NCBI GenBank assembly: GCA_905478165.1
Contig: CAJQHK010000031.1
Span: 1 to 39,322 of the forward strand
Length of the DNA stretch: 39,322 bases
Reading direction: 5' to 3'
Origin: an uncultured Rickettsiales bacterium
Lineage (GTDB): Bacteria > Pseudomonadota > Alphaproteobacteria > Rickettsiales > UBA1997
Position 1 is the stretch's first letter, and each line of letters starts with the position of its first letter. Shown piece by piece: positions 4,311-37,020 of this stretch. The position numbers and the translations under genes are program-made. The notes under the pieces are model-generated. The model saw nothing but the letters and a program-made list of their open reading frames with translations, did no database searches and was not told the DNA's origin.

Positions 4311-5149
4311 AAAATTAATTTAAAGATAGTAATTAATATTGTTACGGGGTGTAAATATTAAAATGAAAAAATAAAATAGTCAAAACTCTATATTAATATT
4401 AATTAACGTAGTAATGTCTTTTACTTAAAGTATCTCTGCATTACTGATGCCAATTATCTAAAACACTAGATAAAATAGTAAATAATCTAACTTCACCTTT
4501 TAACAAAGTTTCTAAAGTAGAAATAATGGCTTTTACCCTTACAATACATCACTTCATTTAAGACTCTACATGCTGAAGAAATACCTCTAAATAGCAATGA
4601 ATAATAAAATAATAACAAATATTTATGACAACATTAAAACCCCTCAAAAACTTGCTGCAACTTCTCTTTTTCATAATGGTGGTGAAGCAAATTCCAATTA
4701 TCTTTAAACTTACTCTATAGACGGATTGTACCAATTCCCACCTTTAAAGCAGTTTTTTTTGAAATATTTTTATTCATAAATTATTAAAAATACTTTGTGG
4801 AGAATGATAAAATATCATATCAATTTTGGAATTAAAGCTCTAAAGAGACAGCGGTAACAACATTTTATCAGGCACGAATCCACAACTTCCAATAAAAATA
4901 TTATTGTAAATTTATCAATATCAGAGTTATTGTCGCAAACAAGACGATGCTCATCTTGAGAAAAATAGTAAAAGCGTCCAAAAATTTTATTTGTTTTTTA
5001 GATAAGAATTATTTAGATACATCTTCACCAGTAACAAAGCCCGTAACAAGTATGTTACATAGGTTTATTGTCCAGATTTTTCTCATAAAAATAGCAATCA
5101 GTAACTGCTGCAATTTCAGAAGTAGTAATAAGTATAAAGTTTTTTATTT
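4311..5149. other. Gene-free region upstream of proS
   Basis: An 839-base stretch with no gene I can support. It holds one partial family B repeat at 4729-4790. The 68-residue plus-strand ORF at 4947-5153 has no family signal and overlaps the thrS stop. The rest is AT-rich with scattered stops, consistent with an eroded gene. The proS promoter should be in its left part. Confidence 0.55.
4729..4790 (-). repeat. Family B dispersed repeat, half copy
   Basis: Reading the minus strand, TTTTTAATAATTTATGAATA leads through an A/T core to CTTTAAAGGTGGGAATTGGT. It aligns nearly base for base with 16943-17006 and with the left arm of the full element at 36847-37020. Only one arm is clear here. Confidence 0.75.
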
Positions 5150-9102: not shown

Positions 9103-9834
9103 ATGACAAAAAAAGCGTTAACAGTAGAACATGTATATAAATCATTTGGCGCGAGAGAAACGCTAAATGACATATCTCTATCTGTTGATGCTAATGAAAT
9201 ATTGGGGTTCATAGGTCTCAACGGAGCTGGAAAAACTACCTTGATAAAAATTATTATCGATTTACTAGATTCTGATTCTGGTCAAGTCAAGATTTTTAAT
9301 CAAGACCATAAATCACCAAATTCCAGACGCAATATTTGCTACTTACCAGAAAAATTTCAACCATCGAACTATTTAACTGGTATTGATTTTATAAAATTAA
9401 ATCTTGGACTACATGGTGCTGATTTTAACCTAAAGGAAGCTGAAATATTGTCAGAAAAACTAGATCTAGATCCAAAATTTTTACCAGAAAAGATTTCGAA
9501 ATATTCGAAGGGGATGACTCAAAAAATTGGACTTATCGCTAGCTTCTTGACCAAAAATAAATTAATTATACTAGATGAGCCTATGAGCGGTCTTGACCCA
9601 AAAGCAAGAATCGTTCTAAAAAATCAATTGTTAGACTACAAAACTCAAGGTAAATCTATATTTTTTAGCTCTCATATATTATCTGATATTGATGAAATTT
9701 GCGATAAAATTGTAATTCTACATGATGGTAAAATTATTTTTACTGGAAATAGCAATATTTTAAAAAAAGAATACAACACTGATAATTTAGAGAAAGCATT
9801 TATTAAATCGATATCTATTAATACCCACCCATAA
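9103..9834 (+). CDS. ABC transporter ATP-binding protein
   Basis: A 243-residue ATPase subunit with all nucleotide-binding motifs: Walker A GLNGAGKTT (about 38-46), signature YSKGMTQKIG, Walker B LIILDEPMSGLDP and the H-loop FFSSHIL. It resembles the CcmA/NatA/DrrA class that works with ABC-2 permeases. No permease is adjacent; the ABC-2-like permease at 27925-28686 is the only candidate in the window. The last residues NTHP and the stop codon lie in the end of a family A repeat (AATACC at 9820), so the native C-terminus may have been replaced. Substrate cannot be predicted. Confidence 0.93.
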   Translation: MTKKALTVEHVYKSFGARETLNDISLSVDANEILGFIGLNGAGKTTLIKIIIDLLDSDSGQVKIFNQDHKSPNSRRNICYLPEKFQPSNYLTGIDFIKLNLGLHGADFNLKEAEILSEKLDLDPKFLPEKISKYSKGMTQKIGLIASFLTKNKLIILDEPMSGLDPKARIVLKNQLLDYKTQGKSIFFSSHILSDIDEICDKIVILHDGKIIFTGNSNILKKEYNTDNLEKAFIKSISINTHP

Positions 9835-9969
9835 TGTAGCACTTAGGTAAATTAACTTAGGTCAAAAATTTATTATTAAATCTATACTTAATATCATAAT
9901 ATAATTTATCTGAATTTTAGCCACAAATAAAAAAGCATAGATGTTGTATTACAGATGAACTTCGGTATT
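9820..9969. repeat. Family A palindromic repeat
   Basis: A nearly full family A copy. It aligns with the reverse complement of 23930-24091: a shared block TTAGGTAAATTAACTTAGGT, then CAAAAATTTATTATTAAATC, and a right arm ending GATGAACTTCGGTATT. The left arm has lost about ten bases after AATACC. It contains the stop codon of the upstream ABC ATPase gene. Confidence 0.85.
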
Positions 9970-9975
9970 GCACAG

Positions 9976-10060
9976 CGTTAACATAGGATGGTTGTTTTTT
10001 AGAAATTTTAACCTTATAATACTTTACCAATATAATGTATTATAACGAGAATTGGTATTA
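9976..10060. repeat. Family B repeat, reversed and shortened
   Basis: Begins GTTAACATAGGATGGTTGTT, the reverse complement of the ACCACCCTATGTTGATAAG block at 20393, and ends GAGAATTGGTATTA, a family B terminus. It directly follows a family A copy, and the next ORF starts 19 bases after it. Confidence 0.6.
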
Positions 10061-10660: not shown

Positions 10661-11869
10661 TTATAAATTACGGTAGATTTCTATGGTGTCTGATATCATT
10701 TTTTCACTAGAAAAATACTTCTTAACTCTATGCCTAGCTTTAACGCCAATTTCCCTCCTTTTTTCTAAATCTAAAGATAATACATGCAATATTTTTTTCG
10801 ACAGATCGGATGAACTTTGATGGTCGCACAAAAACCCAGTCTCAAGATCTACGATAGTCTCCTTTGATCCGCCTAAATTTGTTGCAACAATTATTTTTTC
10901 CATAGCTCCCGCCTCGGTTGCAATCCTGCCAAAAGCCTCTGGTCTTGTGCTTGTAGACAGAACAACGCTAGAAATCATATAAAGTGCAGGCATATCAGAA
11001 ACATGGCTTAAAATTTTAACTTTACCACTCAAACCACTCTCCCCTATTTTCTTTTCCAAGTTATTAATATAACTTTCGTTTGACTTTCCAACCATTAAGC
11101 AAATAAAATCTTCAGATTTAATCATGCTCAACGCATCTAAAAGCAGATCATGACCCTTCCAAGAAGTGAATCTTCCAGGAAGTAAGATAACACTCTTATC
11201 ATCTGTTAATTGTAATTTTTCTATAATTTTTACAATTCTTTCTTTATTAACATTGTCCTTGTTGAAATATTCTACATCAGAACCTCTGTGAATTACCTTT
11301 ACCTTACTTTCTGGAACTAGATATTCCTTAATAATATGGCTTTTTATAAAGTTTGACACAGCAATTATCAAACCCGACCTAACCATTATGGAGTTGTATT
11401 TTCTTTTTAAGAAAGAGTTGCTAGACAAAAAACCCTTAAAGGAATAAGAGCCATGAAAAGTAGTAACAAACTTGCAACTTGCCTTTTTACAAGCAAAATA
11501 GGTACTCCAGGCTGGAGCTCTGGATCTAGCGTGACAAATATCAATATTATATTTTTTAATAATCTTAACTATGCTAAAAATATTAAGAATAATACGAATA
11601 GGATTCTTACTATGAACCGGTAAATATATATGACGAATTTTATGACGCTGAAATTGCCTCAACATTGATCCCCCTGCCGAAATCACTATGATGTCTAAAT
11701 TATCACAGGATAAAGAAAATTTCGACAAATCAAGTACACCCCTCTCAACTCCACCATTTTCAATGGTTGGTAAAATTTGAGCAACAGTAATTTTTTTATT
11801 AACACCCTTTCCCATCTTTAAAGCAGTTTTTTTCAAAATATTTTTATTAACATCCGTTTTAACCCTCAT
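10661..11869 (-). CDS. GT4-family glycosyltransferase
   Basis: A GT-B fold transferase. The N-terminal domain begins KITVAQILPTIENGGVERG (acceptor-side glycine-rich loop). The C-terminal donor domain has ILLPGRFTSWKGHDLLLDAL and the GT4 E-x7-E motif PEAFGRIATEAGAME. It probably adds a sugar to LPS or another envelope glycan; donor and acceptor are unknown. The first 18 to 24 residues are encoded by a family B repeat. The annotated ATG at 11869 gives 402 residues; the internal ATG at 11815 (MGKGVNKKITV), also in the repeat, gives 384 and matches the usual N-terminus better. Neither has a Shine-Dalgarno sequence. Confidence 0.9.
   Translation of the reverse strand: MRVKTDVNKNILKKTALKMGKGVNKKITVAQILPTIENGGVERGVLDLSKFSLSCDNLDIIVISAGGSMLRQFQRHKIRHIYLPVHSKNPIRIILNIFSIVKIIKKYNIDICHARSRAPAWSTYFACKKASCKFVTTFHGSYSFKGFLSSNSFLKRKYNSIMVRSGLIIAVSNFIKSHIIKEYLVPESKVKVIHRGSDVEYFNKDNVNKERIVKIIEKLQLTDDKSVILLPGRFTSWKGHDLLLDALSMIKSEDFICLMVGKSNESYINNLEKKIGESGLSGKVKILSHVSDMPALYMISSVVLSTSTRPEAFGRIATEAGAMEKIIVATNLGGSKETIVDLETGFLCDHQSSSDLSKKILHVLSLDLEKRREIGVKARHRVKKYFSSEKMISDTIEIYRNL
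11801..11850 (-). repeat. Family B repeat fragment inside the glycosyltransferase 5' end
   Basis: On the minus strand AATAAAAATATTTTGAAAAA is followed by AACTGCTTTAAAGATGGGAA, matching 4729-4790 and 16943-17006. It lies in the reading frame of the glycosyltransferase and supplies its candidate internal start codon. Confidence 0.75.
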
Positions 11870-11900
11870 ATTTTAAAGGTAAAACAGTGGAAAATGTTAC

Positions 11901-11997
11901 AATACCAATGTTTATCTATAATGTAATATTTACGCTTCTTATTTTTGACCCAAACTATTTTACCTAAATGCCACACTGTAGATGAGCTTTGTCATGG
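11901..11997. repeat. Family A repeat, internally deleted (about 97 bp)
   Basis: Left arm AATACCAATGTTTATCTATA and right arm CTGTAGATGAGCTTTGTCAT match the ends of 23930-24091, and GACCCAAACTATTTTACCTA matches the inner right part. The central 60 or so bases are missing. It fills most of the gap between the glycosyltransferase and purA; its right end is about 10 bases from the purA stop. Confidence 0.8.
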
Positions 11998-12006
11998 TAG
12001 CATTTA

Positions 12007-13293
12007 TTATTTTATCACTTCTGGATTAACTACAATAGTCTCGCTCCTATCTGGGCCAGTAGAGATAATATCAATATTTATACCACAAATTTCTTCAATT
12101 TTTCGAATATATTTTATTGCATTTTCTGGCAAATCTTCAATCTTCTTAATATTTCTAATTGAAGATTTCCAGCCGGCAACTTCTTCATAAATTGGCTTAA
12201 CTATATTTTGTAAATCAATTCTATTTGGTAGATAATCGTATATTTTGCCATCAATGTCATAAGAAGTGCAAATTTTAATTTTATCCATTTTATCTAAAAC
12301 ATCTAACTTTGTTAAGACGACAGATTTTATGCTTGATAAGGTTATTGCTTTTTTAACAAGAGCCGCATCAAACCAACCGCATCTCCTATCTCGACCTGTA
12401 ACAGTTCCAATTTCGGCACCCTCTAACTTCAAAAAATTACCTACCTCATCATTTAATTCGGTTGGAAAAGGTCCAGAACCAACGCGAGTTGTATAAGCCT
12501 TCAGAATTCCAATAGTTTTGTCAATAGATGACATAGGAGTACAACCACCAACAAAAGCCGAACTACTAAGAGTGTGTGAAGAAGTGACAAAAGGATAAGT
12601 TCCGTTGGTAACATCTAAAAGAGCTCCCTGAGCTCCCTCAAACATAACATTTTTTTTAGAGCTTAATTTTCTAGTAATATCAAAAGAATCCTTAGAATAA
12701 GATATAATTTCATCTTTAATGTCTAAAATCTCCTTCAATATTAAATTAAAACTAACTTTATCCAGACCCAAACCAGCCCTCAAGATATTATGAAAATAAA
12801 GGATATTTTTTAACCTTTCAGAGAGTATGTCCTCATTCATTAAGTCGCAAATTCTTATAGACCTTCTTCCAACTATATCCTCATAAGCAGGACCTATGCC
12901 TCTACCCGTAGTTCCAATTTTCTTCTCTCCCTTGTTACTTTCCAACAACGCATCCAAATCCTTATGAAAAGAAAAAATCAAAGAACAATTGTCGGCGATA
13001 TTTAGGTTATTTGGAGTAATATTTATACCAGCTTTTTGTAAGGTTTTAATTTCTTTTAGTAAAGTAAAAGGATCAACCACGACTCCGGAACCAATAACAG
13101 AATATTTGTTCTGAATTAATCCAGAAGGTAAGATGCTCAATTTATAAGTTTTACCTTTGCTTTTAATAGTATGTCCAGCGTTATGACCACCCTGAAATCT
13201 AACTACGGCATCAAAAGAGTTGGATAAAAAATCTACCAACTTTCCTTTACCCTCATCTCCCCACTGAAGACCCATAATAACAATATTGCTCAT
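12007..13293 (-). CDS. purA: Adenylosuccinate synthase
   Basis: A 428-residue enzyme joining IMP and aspartate with GTP to make adenylosuccinate, the first committed step to AMP. Motifs are the N-terminal P-loop GLQWGDEGKGKLVD, GGHNAGHT, GTTGRGIGPAYED, the IMP-site TRVGSGPFPTEL, VTGRDRRCGWFD and TKLDVLD. Length is normal. Its ATG overlaps the stop of the small zinc-protein gene as TAATG, so the two are co-translated. It may allow use of host IMP, since other purine genes are not seen here. Confidence 0.97.
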   Translation of the reverse strand: MSNIVIMGLQWGDEGKGKLVDFLSNSFDAVVRFQGGHNAGHTIKSKGKTYKLSILPSGLIQNKYSVIGSGVVVDPFTLLKEIKTLQKAGINITPNNLNIADNCSLIFSFHKDLDALLESNKGEKKIGTTGRGIGPAYEDIVGRRSIRICDLMNEDILSERLKNILYFHNILRAGLGLDKVSFNLILKEILDIKDEIISYSKDSFDITRKLSSKKNVMFEGAQGALLDVTNGTYPFVTSSHTLSSSAFVGGCTPMSSIDKTIGILKAYTTRVGSGPFPTELNDEVGNFLKLEGAEIGTVTGRDRRCGWFDAALVKKAITLSSIKSVVLTKLDVLDKMDKIKICTSYDIDGKIYDYLPNRIDLQNIVKPIYEEVAGWKSSIRNIKKIEDLPENAIKYIRKIEEICGINIDIISTGPDRSETIVVNPEVIK

Positions 13294-16905: not shown

Positions 16906-16942
16906 TTATGCCAATTATCAATCTATTAACAGAGGATCGGCA

Positions 16943-17006
16943 TTATTTAATAATTCATGAATAAAAATATTTTAAAAAACTACTTTAAAGATGGGAATTG
17001 GTATTA
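16943..17006 (+). repeat. Family B repeat arm overlapping the start of the aas-like gene
   Basis: TTTAATAATTCATGAATAAA followed by an A/T run and CTACTTTAAAGATGGGAATT, GGTATTA. About 60 bases match 4729-4790 (reverse strand) with few differences. The ATG in AAAGATGGGA is the start of the downstream gene. Confidence 0.8.
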
Positions 17007-19108
17007 GGCAATTATTTAAATTATTTTTTAAAGTTAAGATTAACGACCTAAATCCTTACATAAACTCTAAAAAAGGTACCATTTTCATCTCTAATCTTAC
17101 CTCCTATTTAGATATCTTTATCTACGCCACTTTCTTACCTAAAAAACTAATAATAATCCTAACTAAGCCCAAGGAATCAAACTTATTACTAAATTTTCTT
17201 TTTAAAATATTCAATATTTATCTGATAGAAAGCGGAAGATCTTCAGATATAATTAAACTAGTAAAGAAAATAAAAAATGGCAAAAAATGCTTGATTTTTC
17301 CTGAGTCAAAACCGAACTATAAAGGTTCTATCGCAAAAATTTATGAAGATAGTCTAATAATAGCACAAAAAACTGATTCAGAAATTATTTCAATAAATAT
17401 AAGTAATTCACAGAACTCAATTTTTTCTAAGAAACTTCCATATTTAAGAAAAAAAATATTTACTAAAATTAATATTCATTTCTCAAAAACAATGAAAGTT
17501 CAATTAAATAAAAATTTAAACCGAAGAGACAAAAGAAGATTTGCCAAAAAACAGCTTTTTAAAATAATGTCAGAAAACTATTATGACGCAATTCAAAAAG
17601 ATAAAACTCTATTTTCTAAACTACTTGAAACCAAAAATAATATAAAAAATAAAGTAATAATTACCGACTTCAATCAAACAGATATCACTTACAATAAGCT
17701 AATTATTGGATCAATTATTTTGGGAAAAAAGATATCCAAACAGACGAAGGAAGAAAAAAAAATTGGCTTATTATTACCAAATATTTCGGCTGCAATGGTT
17801 ACTTTTTTTGCCTTACAATTAATTGGTAAAATTCCTGCGATTTTAAATTTTTCTAATGGCACCGATAGACTTCTCGGATCAATTCAAAATTCTAGACTAA
17901 AATATATCTATTCTTCAAAATTATTTATTAAAAAAGCTAAATTAGGCAAATTTATTAAACTAGCGGAAGAAAAAAATATTAAAATCATCTATCTAGAAGA
18001 TTTAAAATCTGAAATCTCCACCTTAAATAAAATTACAGCAGTTTTTAAATCAAATTTTATTACAAAATATCTAAAAAAAATTAACAAAACTACGGCAGAT
18101 GATATTGCTATAATTTTATTTACTTCAGGATCAGAAGGTAATCCCAAAGCTGTTGCACTGACTCATAGAAATATTAACAGCAATATTGCTCAACTTAAAT
18201 CTATTATTGATTTTAACCCATCTGACAAAGCTTTTAATGCTATGCCAATTTTTCATTCTTTTGGCCTGGTTATTGGATCTATTTTGCCAATTTTTTCTGG
18301 CATTAAAACTTATCTTTACCCTTCCCCCATTCATTACAATAAAATACCAAACTTAGTATATAATTTTTCTGCGACAATTACTTTTGGCACTAATTATTTC
18401 TTAAAAAAATATAGTGAATTTGCTGACAATCTAGACTTCTCTTCGGTTAGGTACATTTTTGCTGGTGCAGAAAAAATTACTTCCGATACTAAAAATATTT
18501 ATTTTGAAAAATTTGGTGTCAGAATATTAGAAGGATATGGCGCAACCGAAACCTCGCCAGTTGTTTGTTTAAACACTCCAAGGTCAAATAAATTTAACAC
18601 AATTGGACAAATTTTACCAAGAATAACTTACAAGATAGAAAAAATAAAAAATATTTCTGAAGGAGGATCTTTGTTAGTAAAGGCAGATAATGTCATGAAA
18701 GGCTATTTAGATTTAAAAAATCCTGAGAGAGTTAAAGAGAGAGAGGAATATTATAATATGGGTGACGTAGTTCGTATTGATGAAGATGGTCACCTTATAA
18801 TTACCGGCAGAATAAAAAGATTTATTAAGATTGCTGGTGAAATGGTTTCGTTAAATCTAATCGAATCCTATATTAGAAAAATTTCCCCAAACAACAATCA
18901 CGCCGTAATTTCTTTTATTGATAGCAGTTCTAAAGAAAATATGTCTTTATTTACTGATGATAAGAGTCTAAATTTAGAAAAAATTATAAAAATCTTTAAA
19001 GAAAAAAACATTGGAACGATTTTTATACCAAGGAACATTGAATATGAAAAAAACATCCCTATTTTAAATACAGGGAAGATTGATTACAATAAATTAGAAA
19101 ACAAATAA
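16991..19108 (+). CDS. aas: Fused lysophospholipid acyltransferase / acyl-ACP synthetase (Aas-like)
   Basis: A 705-residue two-domain protein laid out like E. coli Aas (719 residues). The N-terminal PlsC-like domain has LIFPESKPNYKGSIAKIYED, but the catalytic NHxxxxD motif reads NLTSYLD: His is Leu. The C-terminal AMP-binding domain is intact, with LFTSGSEGNPKAVALTH, EGYGATETSPVV, YYNMGDVVRIDEDG, ITGRIKRFIKIAGE and the catalytic Lys in TGKIDYNKL. In the parent family it activates fatty acid on ACP and re-acylates lysophosphatidylethanolamine. Here the synthetase half looks active and the acyltransferase half doubtful. The ATG lies in a family B repeat, with an in-frame TAA six codons upstream. 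Confidence 0.88.
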   Translation: MGIGIRQLFKLFFKVKINDLNPYINSKKGTIFISNLTSYLDIFIYATFLPKKLIIILTKPKESNLLLNFLFKIFNIYLIESGRSSDIIKLVKKIKNGKKCLIFPESKPNYKGSIAKIYEDSLIIAQKTDSEIISINISNSQNSIFSKKLPYLRKKIFTKINIHFSKTMKVQLNKNLNRRDKRRFAKKQLFKIMSENYYDAIQKDKTLFSKLLETKNNIKNKVIITDFNQTDITYNKLIIGSIILGKKISKQTKEEKKIGLLLPNISAAMVTFFALQLIGKIPAILNFSNGTDRLLGSIQNSRLKYIYSSKLFIKKAKLGKFIKLAEEKNIKIIYLEDLKSEISTLNKITAVFKSNFITKYLKKINKTTADDIAIILFTSGSEGNPKAVALTHRNINSNIAQLKSIIDFNPSDKAFNAMPIFHSFGLVIGSILPIFSGIKTYLYPSPIHYNKIPNLVYNFSATITFGTNYFLKKYSEFADNLDFSSVRYIFAGAEKITSDTKNIYFEKFGVRILEGYGATETSPVVCLNTPRSNKFNTIGQILPRITYKIEKIKNISEGGSLLVKADNVMKGYLDLKNPERVKEREEYYNMGDVVRIDEDGHLIITGRIKRFIKIAGEMVSLNLIESYIRKISPNNNHAVISFIDSSSKENMSLFTDDKSLNLEKIIKIFKEKNIGTIFIPRNIEYEKNIPILNTGKIDYNKLENK

Positions 19109-20028: not shown

Positions 20029-20279
20029 ATTATACAGTTAGATGAGTAGTTTTAAATTTGCACTTTATTGAGTAGTAACCCTGATTATCATGGCAAACAA
20101 ACTTCTTATCTGGAAGAGGAGGTATTTTGAGCTGAAGAACAAGATAGATATGGTAAAAGAACTTCTTTTATAGATTTAAATTCAGGATCATTGATGAGAC
20201 CATTCATTTAACTGTGTAAAGTCAGTTTAAGTCTTTTTGGAAAATGATTTTCCAATTGCTAACAATTATAGTACATTTT

Positions 20280-20355
20280 GATGTGGATACACTTCTCCGG
20301 ACAGATTTTTAACAATTATTAATAAAAATTATGTCCGGAGAAGTGTAGCCACATC
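20280..20355. mobile_element. 76-bp MITE-like element with 24-bp inverted ends resembling an IS3-family terminus
   Basis: Left arm GATGTGGATACACTTCTCCG (plus GACA) and right arm TGTCCGGAGAAGTGTAGCCA (plus CATC) are inverted copies with 23 of 24 positions matching, around 28 AT-rich bases. The inner ...TTCTCCGGACA closely matches TTTTCCGGACA at the IS3-family end at 39202-39222. It is too short to code. It could also form a strong hairpin in RNA and act as a terminator between the convergent hisZ and xthA genes. Confidence 0.65.
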
Positions 20356-20378
20356 ATTTAGAGTATTGTAAGATTATA

Positions 20379-20475
20379 ATTGTCAAAAAAACGACCACCC
20401 TATGTTGATAAGTTAATTACTTTGAGATGAAAAAGAAATATGTTTTAACTTATATATTTTAAGGATAATTTGCTT
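20379..20475 (+). repeat. Family B repeat, right part
   Basis: TTGTCAAAAAAACGACCACC is followed by CTATGTTGATAAGTTAATTA and ends TTATATATTTTAAGGATAAT. It parallels the right part of 36847-37020 (AAAAAACGACTATCCTGTGT) and 30899-31060. The terminal GGTATTA is degraded here. Confidence 0.65.
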
Positions 20476-23854: not shown

Positions 23855-23929
23855 TAATATTTGTTAAATTTTTCGGATAAACCGAATCTTAAATCATACC
23901 ACACCATAGATAAAAATGGTATCACTCTA

Positions 23930-24091
23930 TACCAAAGTTAATCTATAATGCAACATTTATGCTTTTTATTTTTGGAAAAAAATTATCACAAAACTTATCT
24001 AAATATATTTCGATATTAAGCATAAATTTAATAATAAATTTTTGACTCAAACTAATTTACCTAAATGTTGCATTATAGATGAACTTTGGCA
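23930..24091. repeat. Family A palindromic repeat, best full copy (162 bp)
   Basis: The left arm begins TACCAAAGTTAATCTATAAT and the right arm ends ATTATAGATGAACTTTGGCA; over 30 bases the inverted arms differ at about two positions. The AT-rich centre contains AATTATCACAAAACTTATCT and TTTAATAATAAATTTTTGAC, blocks found again at 9820-9969, 27035-27200 and 36315-36360. No coding capacity. It lies between rpsP and lipB. Confidence 0.9.
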
Positions 24092-27034: not shown

Positions 27035-27200
27035 TATAACAAAGTTTATCTACAATAAGACATTTAGGTAAATTAGTTTGGGTCAAAAATTTATTATTAA
27101 ATCTATATTTAATATCGGAATATATTTAGCTAAATTTTATGATAATTTTTGTCTAACAATAAGAAGTATAAATTCTACACTATAGATGAGATTTGGTATT
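27035..27200. repeat. Family A palindromic repeat, full length (about 166 bp)
   Basis: Left arm ATAACAAAGTTTATCTACAA, centre TTAGGTAAATTAGTTTGGGT and GAATATATTTAGCTAAATTT, right arm CACTATAGATGAGATTTGGT then ATT. Same orientation as 9820-9969. Its right end overlaps the last seven codons (stop included) of the hypothetical gene at 27180. Confidence 0.88.
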
Positions 27201-30755: not shown

Positions 30756-30898
30756 AATAGATTAATTATAAATTTAAATCAACATCAAATATTAAAATAA
30801 TCTTAACTAAGAATTATAAATCATAGAGCAAAATTAATACGCCCTTAAAAGAATAATAATTGCTTTCTAAATTAATTGTCCTAAAAACTCTTCATTTA

Positions 30899-31060
30899 TG
30901 TTAATTTTCACCTTTAAAGAAGTTTTTTCTTTATCTTTTACTCCTAAACAATCAAAAACTCTTGCACCCTATGTTAATAGGTTGATGATTTAAGGATAAT
31001 AAGGATGGAGAAAAAATCTGCTCTATAACTTGTATATTTTAAAGGTGGGAATCGGTATTA
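30899..31060 (+). repeat. Family B element, near full length
   Basis: Left arm TTTTCACCTTTAAAGAAGTT, centre TTGCACCCTATGTTAATAGG and GATGATTTAAGGATAATAAG, right arm TATATTTTAAAGGTGGGAAT then CGGTATTA. Same order of blocks as 36847-37020. Confidence 0.8.
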
Positions 31061-36314: not shown

Positions 36315-36360
36315 ATCTCATGCCAAAAATTATCATAAAATTTAGCTAAATATATTCCTT
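36315..36360. repeat. Family A internal fragment
   Basis: AATTATCATAAAATTTAGCT followed by AAATATATTCC matches the centre of the family A copies at 23930 and 27035. Both arms are missing. Confidence 0.6.
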
Positions 36361-36363
36361 AGG

Positions 36364-36435
36364 GCGGTCATTTTTTGTCAATTTTAACCTTAAAGTATTT
36401 AAAAAAGGCTACTTTAAAGATAGGAGTTGGTACAA
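36364..36435 (+). repeat. Family B repeat, shortened
   Basis: CGGTCATTTTTTGTCAATTT, AACCTTAAAG and GGCTACTTTAAAGATAGGAG then TTGGTACA. The last 22 bases match the right arm of the 16943 copy. Confidence 0.65.
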
Positions 36436-36578
36436 TATAACTCTCCAGAATCTAAAACCTCCTTCCAATATTGTTCTATGTCTTAACTTTGAAATACTTA
36501 CTCACCCCTAAGTAAACTAGTCTTCGGTGTTTAAAAGAATAAAAAATCTCTGTGGACATTTTAATTCCAAGCAGACCT

Positions 36579-36722
36579 ATAATACCAAAATACATCTTCA
36601 TTTTTTTACTTGTCATTTACAGAGAGACTTGTCAAGTACGGGCATATTACAGTCGTTTTTCACAAATGTTAGATAAAAAATTTTAATATATTGCTTATCT
36701 TGAGATGTATTTTGGCATAATA
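36579..36722. repeat. Family C palindromic repeat (about 144 bp)
   Basis: Left arm TATAATACCAAAATACATCT and right arm AGATGTATTTTGGCATAATA are inverted copies with few mismatches. The centre (ACTTGTCATTTACAGAGAGA) does not match families A or B. No coding capacity. The outer motif AATACCAAA is shared with family A. Confidence 0.75.
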
Positions 36723-36846: not shown

Positions 36847-37020
36847 TTATACCATTTGCTATCTTTAAGGCAGTTTTTTTCAAAATATTTTATTCATAAA
36901 TTGTTAAAAAACGACTATCCTGTGTTAATAAGGAGTAGGACTTTTTAATGATTTAGGAATAAAAAAGATACAGAAAGAAACCACTTTAACTTGCGTATTT
37001 TAAAGGTAGGAGTGGTATAA
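36847..37020 (+). repeat. Family B element, best full copy (174 bp)
   Basis: Begins TTATACCATTTGCTATCTTT and ends TTTTAAAGGTAGGAGTGGTA then TAA, giving imperfect inverted ends TTATACCA...TGGTATAA. The centre reads AAAAACGACTATCCTGTGTT then AATAAGGAG. It defines the full length of family B. Confidence 0.82.

Follow-up and report, generated by a model that had tools for sequence, protein, structure and literature searches.

The 39,322-nucleotide stretch of DNA analysed here, called the window, comes from an uncultured Rickettsiales bacterium, and a sequence close to its end, at positions 36847-37020, recurs elsewhere in it. The locus raises the question of what kind of repeat this is and how its copies arose. 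The original prediction described it as a full copy of a dispersed repeat, Family B, and suggested decay or recombination between arms for the many half copies. We consider it probable, at roughly 85%, that Family B is a MITE moved by an IS630-type transposase supplied in trans. The home genome (G000) is 1.2 Mb in 31 contigs and 97% complete, and the DNA read in it comprised the stretches around copies.

Structure and copies of Family B

The Family B consensus, built from home-genome copies, is 169 bp long (TACCAATTCCCAYCTTTAAA...TTTAAAGRTGGGAATTGGTA), starts with TACCAATTCCCACCTTTAAAGCAG and ends with TTTAAAGATGGGAATTGGTA. It folds on itself with 69 bp paired and is palindromic over nearly its whole length, with a loop around CCCTATGTTAATAGGG and a hairpin energy of -72.7 kcal/mol (RNA parameters). 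The arms differ in length by 14 nt, which gives the element an orientation. With terminal inverted repeats, a length below about 500 bp and no transposase gene, Family B has the structure of a MITE. Its ends are sharp, and tandem copies in the relative G010 meet exactly, GGTA of one copy against TACC of the next. Together with the 3-bp duplication described below, these ends and joins bear out the predicted dispersed repeat with consistent boundaries. Similarity due to low-complexity AT sequence was ruled out by alignment-score controls and a reversed-pattern control.

The predicted copies in the window were aligned to the consensus, with 400 reversed window segments as the control (95% level 28, maximum 39). 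Seven of the eight scored above every control. The copy at 36847-37020 is confirmed as a full element at 36850-37017 on the plus strand, a 168 bp palindrome (79% to consensus, score 152) that is flanked by TTA (36847-36849) and TAA (37018-37020) and sits 87 bp past the rpsG stop codon. The second full copy, predicted at 30899-31060, is a near-full plus-strand element at 30899-31057 (76% to consensus, score 132) plus a TTA flank; its left end is degenerate, and TTA stands on both sides (30896-30898 and 31058-31060). A single short arm at 4729-4790 (plus strand, score 119) matches consensus positions 1-62 at 98%. Another arm, reported as 36364-36435 and delimited to 36364-36432 on the minus strand, matches positions 1-70 at 75% (score 48) and abuts a fragment of a second repeat, Family A (36324-36358). 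A degenerate centre with the right arm lies at 20379-20475 (plus strand, score 43). The eighth piece, at 9976-10060 on the minus strand and ending in AATTGGTATTA, scored 27, below the 95% control level; it is a weakly supported copy and could instead be a member of a related palindrome family.

Many copies are truncated, as the term 'halves' implied, but two of the pieces so described belong to short two-ended elements with internal deletions. The piece at 16943-17006 (score 90) is part of a 95 bp element at 16909-17003 on the minus strand, flanked by TTA on both sides. The piece at 11801-11850 (score 70) is part of a 97 bp plus-strand element at 11803-11899, whose flanks are TTG/TTA in the gene-strand reading.

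The home genome contains about 25 near-full Family B copies and many truncated ones. The window copy at 36847-37020 has 44 matches genome-wide, and 84 termini were found within 3 mismatches, compared with 2 for the reversed pattern. The best copies outside the window are 94-99% to the consensus, and most full copies are intergenic, often near gene ends. Single arms are truncated at points that vary from copy to copy, and short two-ended copies of about 50-100 bp exist, with forms of about 50-60 bp outside the window. Both observations support the suggested decay, and most of the 'single arms' are copies that have decayed or lost internal sequence. Recombination between arms did not emerge in general, but one 153-bp copy (L015/L074, G000:C2:107-259) is compatible with it, as its two outer arms are exact inverted copies of each other. 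Homogenised arms in this single case would fit template switching, inverted recombination or arm-to-arm repair.

Family B termini are present in 16 of the 47 genomes of the family, in which a control pattern gave 0 matches. Counts reach 141 in G010, 51 in the home genome, 28 in G056, 19 in G014 and 17 in G001; the same search of the 47 genomes gave none in the congener G002. Palindromes in other genera share these ends but differ in their interiors. The element at 36850 is missing from the matching syntenic gap of G001, and that at 30899 from the matching gaps of G001 and G002. Absence of both full window copies is shown at the level of syntenic gaps, but exact empty sites are unreadable because the congener spacers are too diverged.

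Target-site duplication and candidate transposase

Among 60 copies that have both ends, belong to this end family and come from several genomes, 29 have identical 3-bp flanks, whereas 2000 shuffles of the flanks gave a mean of 15.1 and a maximum of 26 identical pairs. The identical pairs are TAA/TAA (15 copies), TTA/TTA (13) and TCA/TCA (1). Discordant TAA/TTA or TTA/TAA flanks were found in four of the 60 copies. TAA/TAA and TTA/TTA are both found among copies that share one orientation, which identifies TWA as the target and not a part of the element. Family B thus shows the target site duplication expected of a MITE, in the form of 3-bp TWA. If the boundaries were fixed, a 2-bp TA duplication would predict discordant flank pairs, of which only the four were observed; it is therefore disfavoured. 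Of the full window copies, the one at 30899 has an exact duplication (TTA/TTA) and the one at 36850 an imperfect one (TTA/TAA).

Several elements are inserted right at the TWA of another element (L048, L059, L067, L070 and L080; GGTA-TTA-TACC), which suggests that the duplicated TWA site is itself a favoured target. At two loci (L042 and L058), genes next to the element on the minus strand stop 1 bp short of it, with the stop codon within the TWA duplication. Direct tandem B-type elements with a 172-183-bp period are found in G010 (L063, L064, L065 and L066, on contigs C4, C7, C38 and C32, respectively). Their GGTA-TACC joins lack a target duplication, and the copies on C4 are identical. Circle-type joining or recombination may account for these tandems, as may assembly for those at contig ends.

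IS630 transposons, members of the Tc1/mariner superfamily, have ends like those of Family B in sister genera. In G006, a genome of the same family and another genus, at least five contig ends carry the terminal inverted repeat TACCAATTCCCATCTTTAAT beside an IS630 transposase C-terminus, and TWA precedes the repeat at four of the five contig ends shown. The Family B end equals this IS630 end at 19 of 20 bases. At locus L104 of G006, TACCAATTCCCATCTTTAAT lies after another ORF and before an IS630 transposase C-terminus on the opposite strand. A PF01609 search pointed to this locus; a PF13358 search then gave the further G006 ends, each beside the same transposase end, and complete IS630 elements. 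One complete element, in G041 (L114), is 1090 bp long with ends TACCAATTATCAAATTTAAC, and another, in G006 (L120), is 1103 bp long with ends TACCAAGATTCATCTATAAT; both begin with TACC and are flanked by TAA/TAA. The transposase proteins match NCBIfam NF033545 (IS630) and Pfam DDE_3 and are split over two or more frames. Ends the same as or related to those of Family B are thus found on elements with an IS630-family transposase, as in RUP-like systems. Family B also shares its ends with an autonomous transposon, as MITEs do, though in another genome (G006), where the closest-ended IS630 was seen only at contig ends and never full-length.

Neither the home genome nor G010, which is the richest in copies, yielded an IS630 transposase matching the B ends (TACCAATTCCCATCTTTAAW), and we therefore infer mobilisation in trans from ends and flanks. 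Multi-copy insertion sequences are easily lost from metagenome assemblies. Where inverted ends lie 1-2 kb apart (G010 C35 and C60; G000 C3 and C19), only host genes were found between them, and no autonomous copy. A decayed IS630 transposase from another subgroup is present in the home genome (L117, G000:C3:390-1243), with a B copy about 350 bp away.

Mobilisation by an IS5-type transposase in place of IS630 is unlikely. IS5/PIF-Harbinger relatives typically duplicate TNA or TWA at the target, IS630 does not typically duplicate a 3-bp TWA, and C27 of the home genome carries an IS5 transposase gene (NF033581) with a B copy about 470 bp away. However, no B-like ends bracket that gene, the ends nearby being those of a separate complete B copy, and IS630 elements themselves have B-type ends and TWA flanks. 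Among the IS5/IS4-type transposases (PF01609) considered as partners, none is bracketed by B ends. We regard it as very improbable that the palindromes are functional RNAs or transcription-terminator hairpins kept for gene regulation and are not transposons. Their long fold and the position of full copies, mostly between genes and often near gene ends, would suit such a role, but a regulatory motif would not be expected to end precisely, to share its ends with IS630, to duplicate TWA, to occur as nested and tandem insertions, to disrupt gene starts or to be patchily present. No Rfam family matched the window elements. Some Family B copies may have a secondary use.

That the repeat belongs to a larger mobile element, or arose as an artefact when palindromes were assembled, seems hardly credible. 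Contig ends are close to some copies (C2/C26, C23 and C7), and the identical tandem copies at contig ends of G010 could be assembly-graph artefacts, but most copies are contig-internal with ordinary chromosomal genes on either side, and the same ends are seen in independent genomes. We classify Family B as a new family of IS630-type MITEs, unusual in its 3-bp duplication. As an IS630-type MITE, the 169-bp palindrome would have no transposase of its own; its ends would be recognised in trans by an IS630-type transposase, which would insert it at TWA and duplicate those three bases. The copies would then decay through loss of ends and internal deletion.

Putative gene starts within Family B elements

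The short arm of Family B, read outward, forms an open frame, MNKNISKKTALK-M/V-GIG followed by the gene, in which the RTG of the end motif is the start codon. Three of 101 outward end matches, identified in home-genome DNA with a relaxed pattern, run into long host genes. The first is an acyltransferase/acyl-ACP ligase gene (PRK06814-like) at 16991-19108 on the plus strand, whose product starts MGIGIRQLF inside a B terminus. Its start (MGIGIRQLFKLFFKVK) has the start codon in the right end of element 16909-17003; an in-frame stop lies just upstream, and there is no other ATG, GTG or TTG before the conserved domain. The ortholog in G002 starts MKFFLQLFFKIK after a normal spacer without the element. 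The second is a GT4-type glycosyltransferase gene at 10661-11869 on the minus strand, with the N-terminus MRVKTDVNKNILKKTALKMGKG encoded by a B element. Its only start codons (MRVKTDVNKNILKKTALKMGKGVNKKITVAQ) lie within element 11803-11899, and its G002 ortholog starts MSISDKKITIAQ. The third is gltX (G000 C11:27289, TIGR00464 above the cut-off), which encodes an essential tRNA synthetase and starts MNKNISKKTALKTKIGTICRFAPSPTG in a B element; the G002 ortholog, preceded by the same upstream gene, starts MTVICRFAPSPTG.

The three genes have usable start codons only inside the B element, and the sister species has its own starts and no element. Judged from sequence, the native starts of the three genes are gone, and the element appears to have replaced the normal protein start; from this we infer that the new starts are used. 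Insertion at the very start of a gene would be tolerated, since the outward arm stays open in frame and brings an ATG and an RTG of its own; from the element the gene would gain a new start codon and, at the N-terminus, a short leader. The three gene-start fusions at the short arm are in-frame, peptide-coding insertions of the kind that defines Rickettsia palindromic elements (RPEs). In-frame fusion within a gene body was not found among the 101 outward end matches in home-genome DNA.

Family B suggests how a mobile repeat can take over the starts of essential genes such as gltX, and gene-start capture offers a testable route by which selfish repeats may become indispensable in shrinking genomes. 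We speculate, tentatively, that Family B shows the origin of RPE-like, protein-fusing palindromes, starting from an IS630-type MITE whose arms retain an outward frame with an inbuilt start codon, passing through insertions that survive at the starts of even essential genes, and leading to host dependence on the element for translation initiation. If true, the palindromic elements of Rickettsiales would be tied to a transposase family.

Related palindromic repeats

By analogy, the nearest functional parallel to Family B is the repeat unit of pneumococcus (RUP) with IS630-Spn1, which is proposed to mobilise RUP at TA targets (PMC2229807). Both repeats are short, non-autonomous and palindromic, reach high copy numbers and have ends matching an IS630 transposon (PMC2229807). 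They differ in length (169 bp in Family B, 107 in RUP) and in target. TA, and not TWA, is the usual IS630 target duplication and that of RUP (PMC2229807); the 2-bp TA duplication is not a feature of Family B, which has 3-bp TWA. Moreover, Family B differs in that no partner was found in the same genome, and in having arms with an outward open frame at gene starts.

The nearest biological parallel, again by analogy, is the RPE. RPEs are about 100-150 bp long, encode peptides and are fused in frame to genes (PMC10969869, PMC2229807). They lie inside coding regions, whereas the 169-bp Family B elements are mostly intergenic and capture gene starts. Family B has a 3-bp duplication and a transposase candidate; RPE target duplication is listed as unknown (PMC2229807), and neither PMC2229807 nor PMC10969869 gives a transposase or target duplication for RPEs. 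As this likeness is one of description, Family B is not filed as an RPE. It provides a concrete case, in or near Rickettsiales, of a palindrome that has defined ends and a target duplication and for which there is a candidate transposase. The Correia/NEMIS elements of Neisseria are likewise palindromic MITEs with TA-containing ends, abundant near genes (PMC2229807), but their ends, host and duplication differ from those of Family B.

The window also contains Family A palindromes, at 23929-24088, 27040-27199, 9826-9906, 11941-12009 and 36324-36358, which begin with ATACCAAAGTTAATCTATAATGCAACAT. This start is close to the ends of the complete G006 element L120 (TACCAAGATTCATCTATAATACAACAT), and Family A is likely a second IS630-type MITE family. 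Because of this resemblance, Families A and B look like MITEs of two IS630 lineages. A separate inverted repeat at 20279-20356 (TGATGTGGATACACTTCTCCGGACAGA...) has 85-98% matches elsewhere in G001 and represents another repeat family. The segment at 36445-36592 is a further dispersed repeat, matching at least four places in the congener G001 (72-78%). Short palindromes at L077, L144, L145 and L143, with ends TACCAATTCCCA(T/C)(T/C)TATAAT, form a third end type between those of Families A and B.
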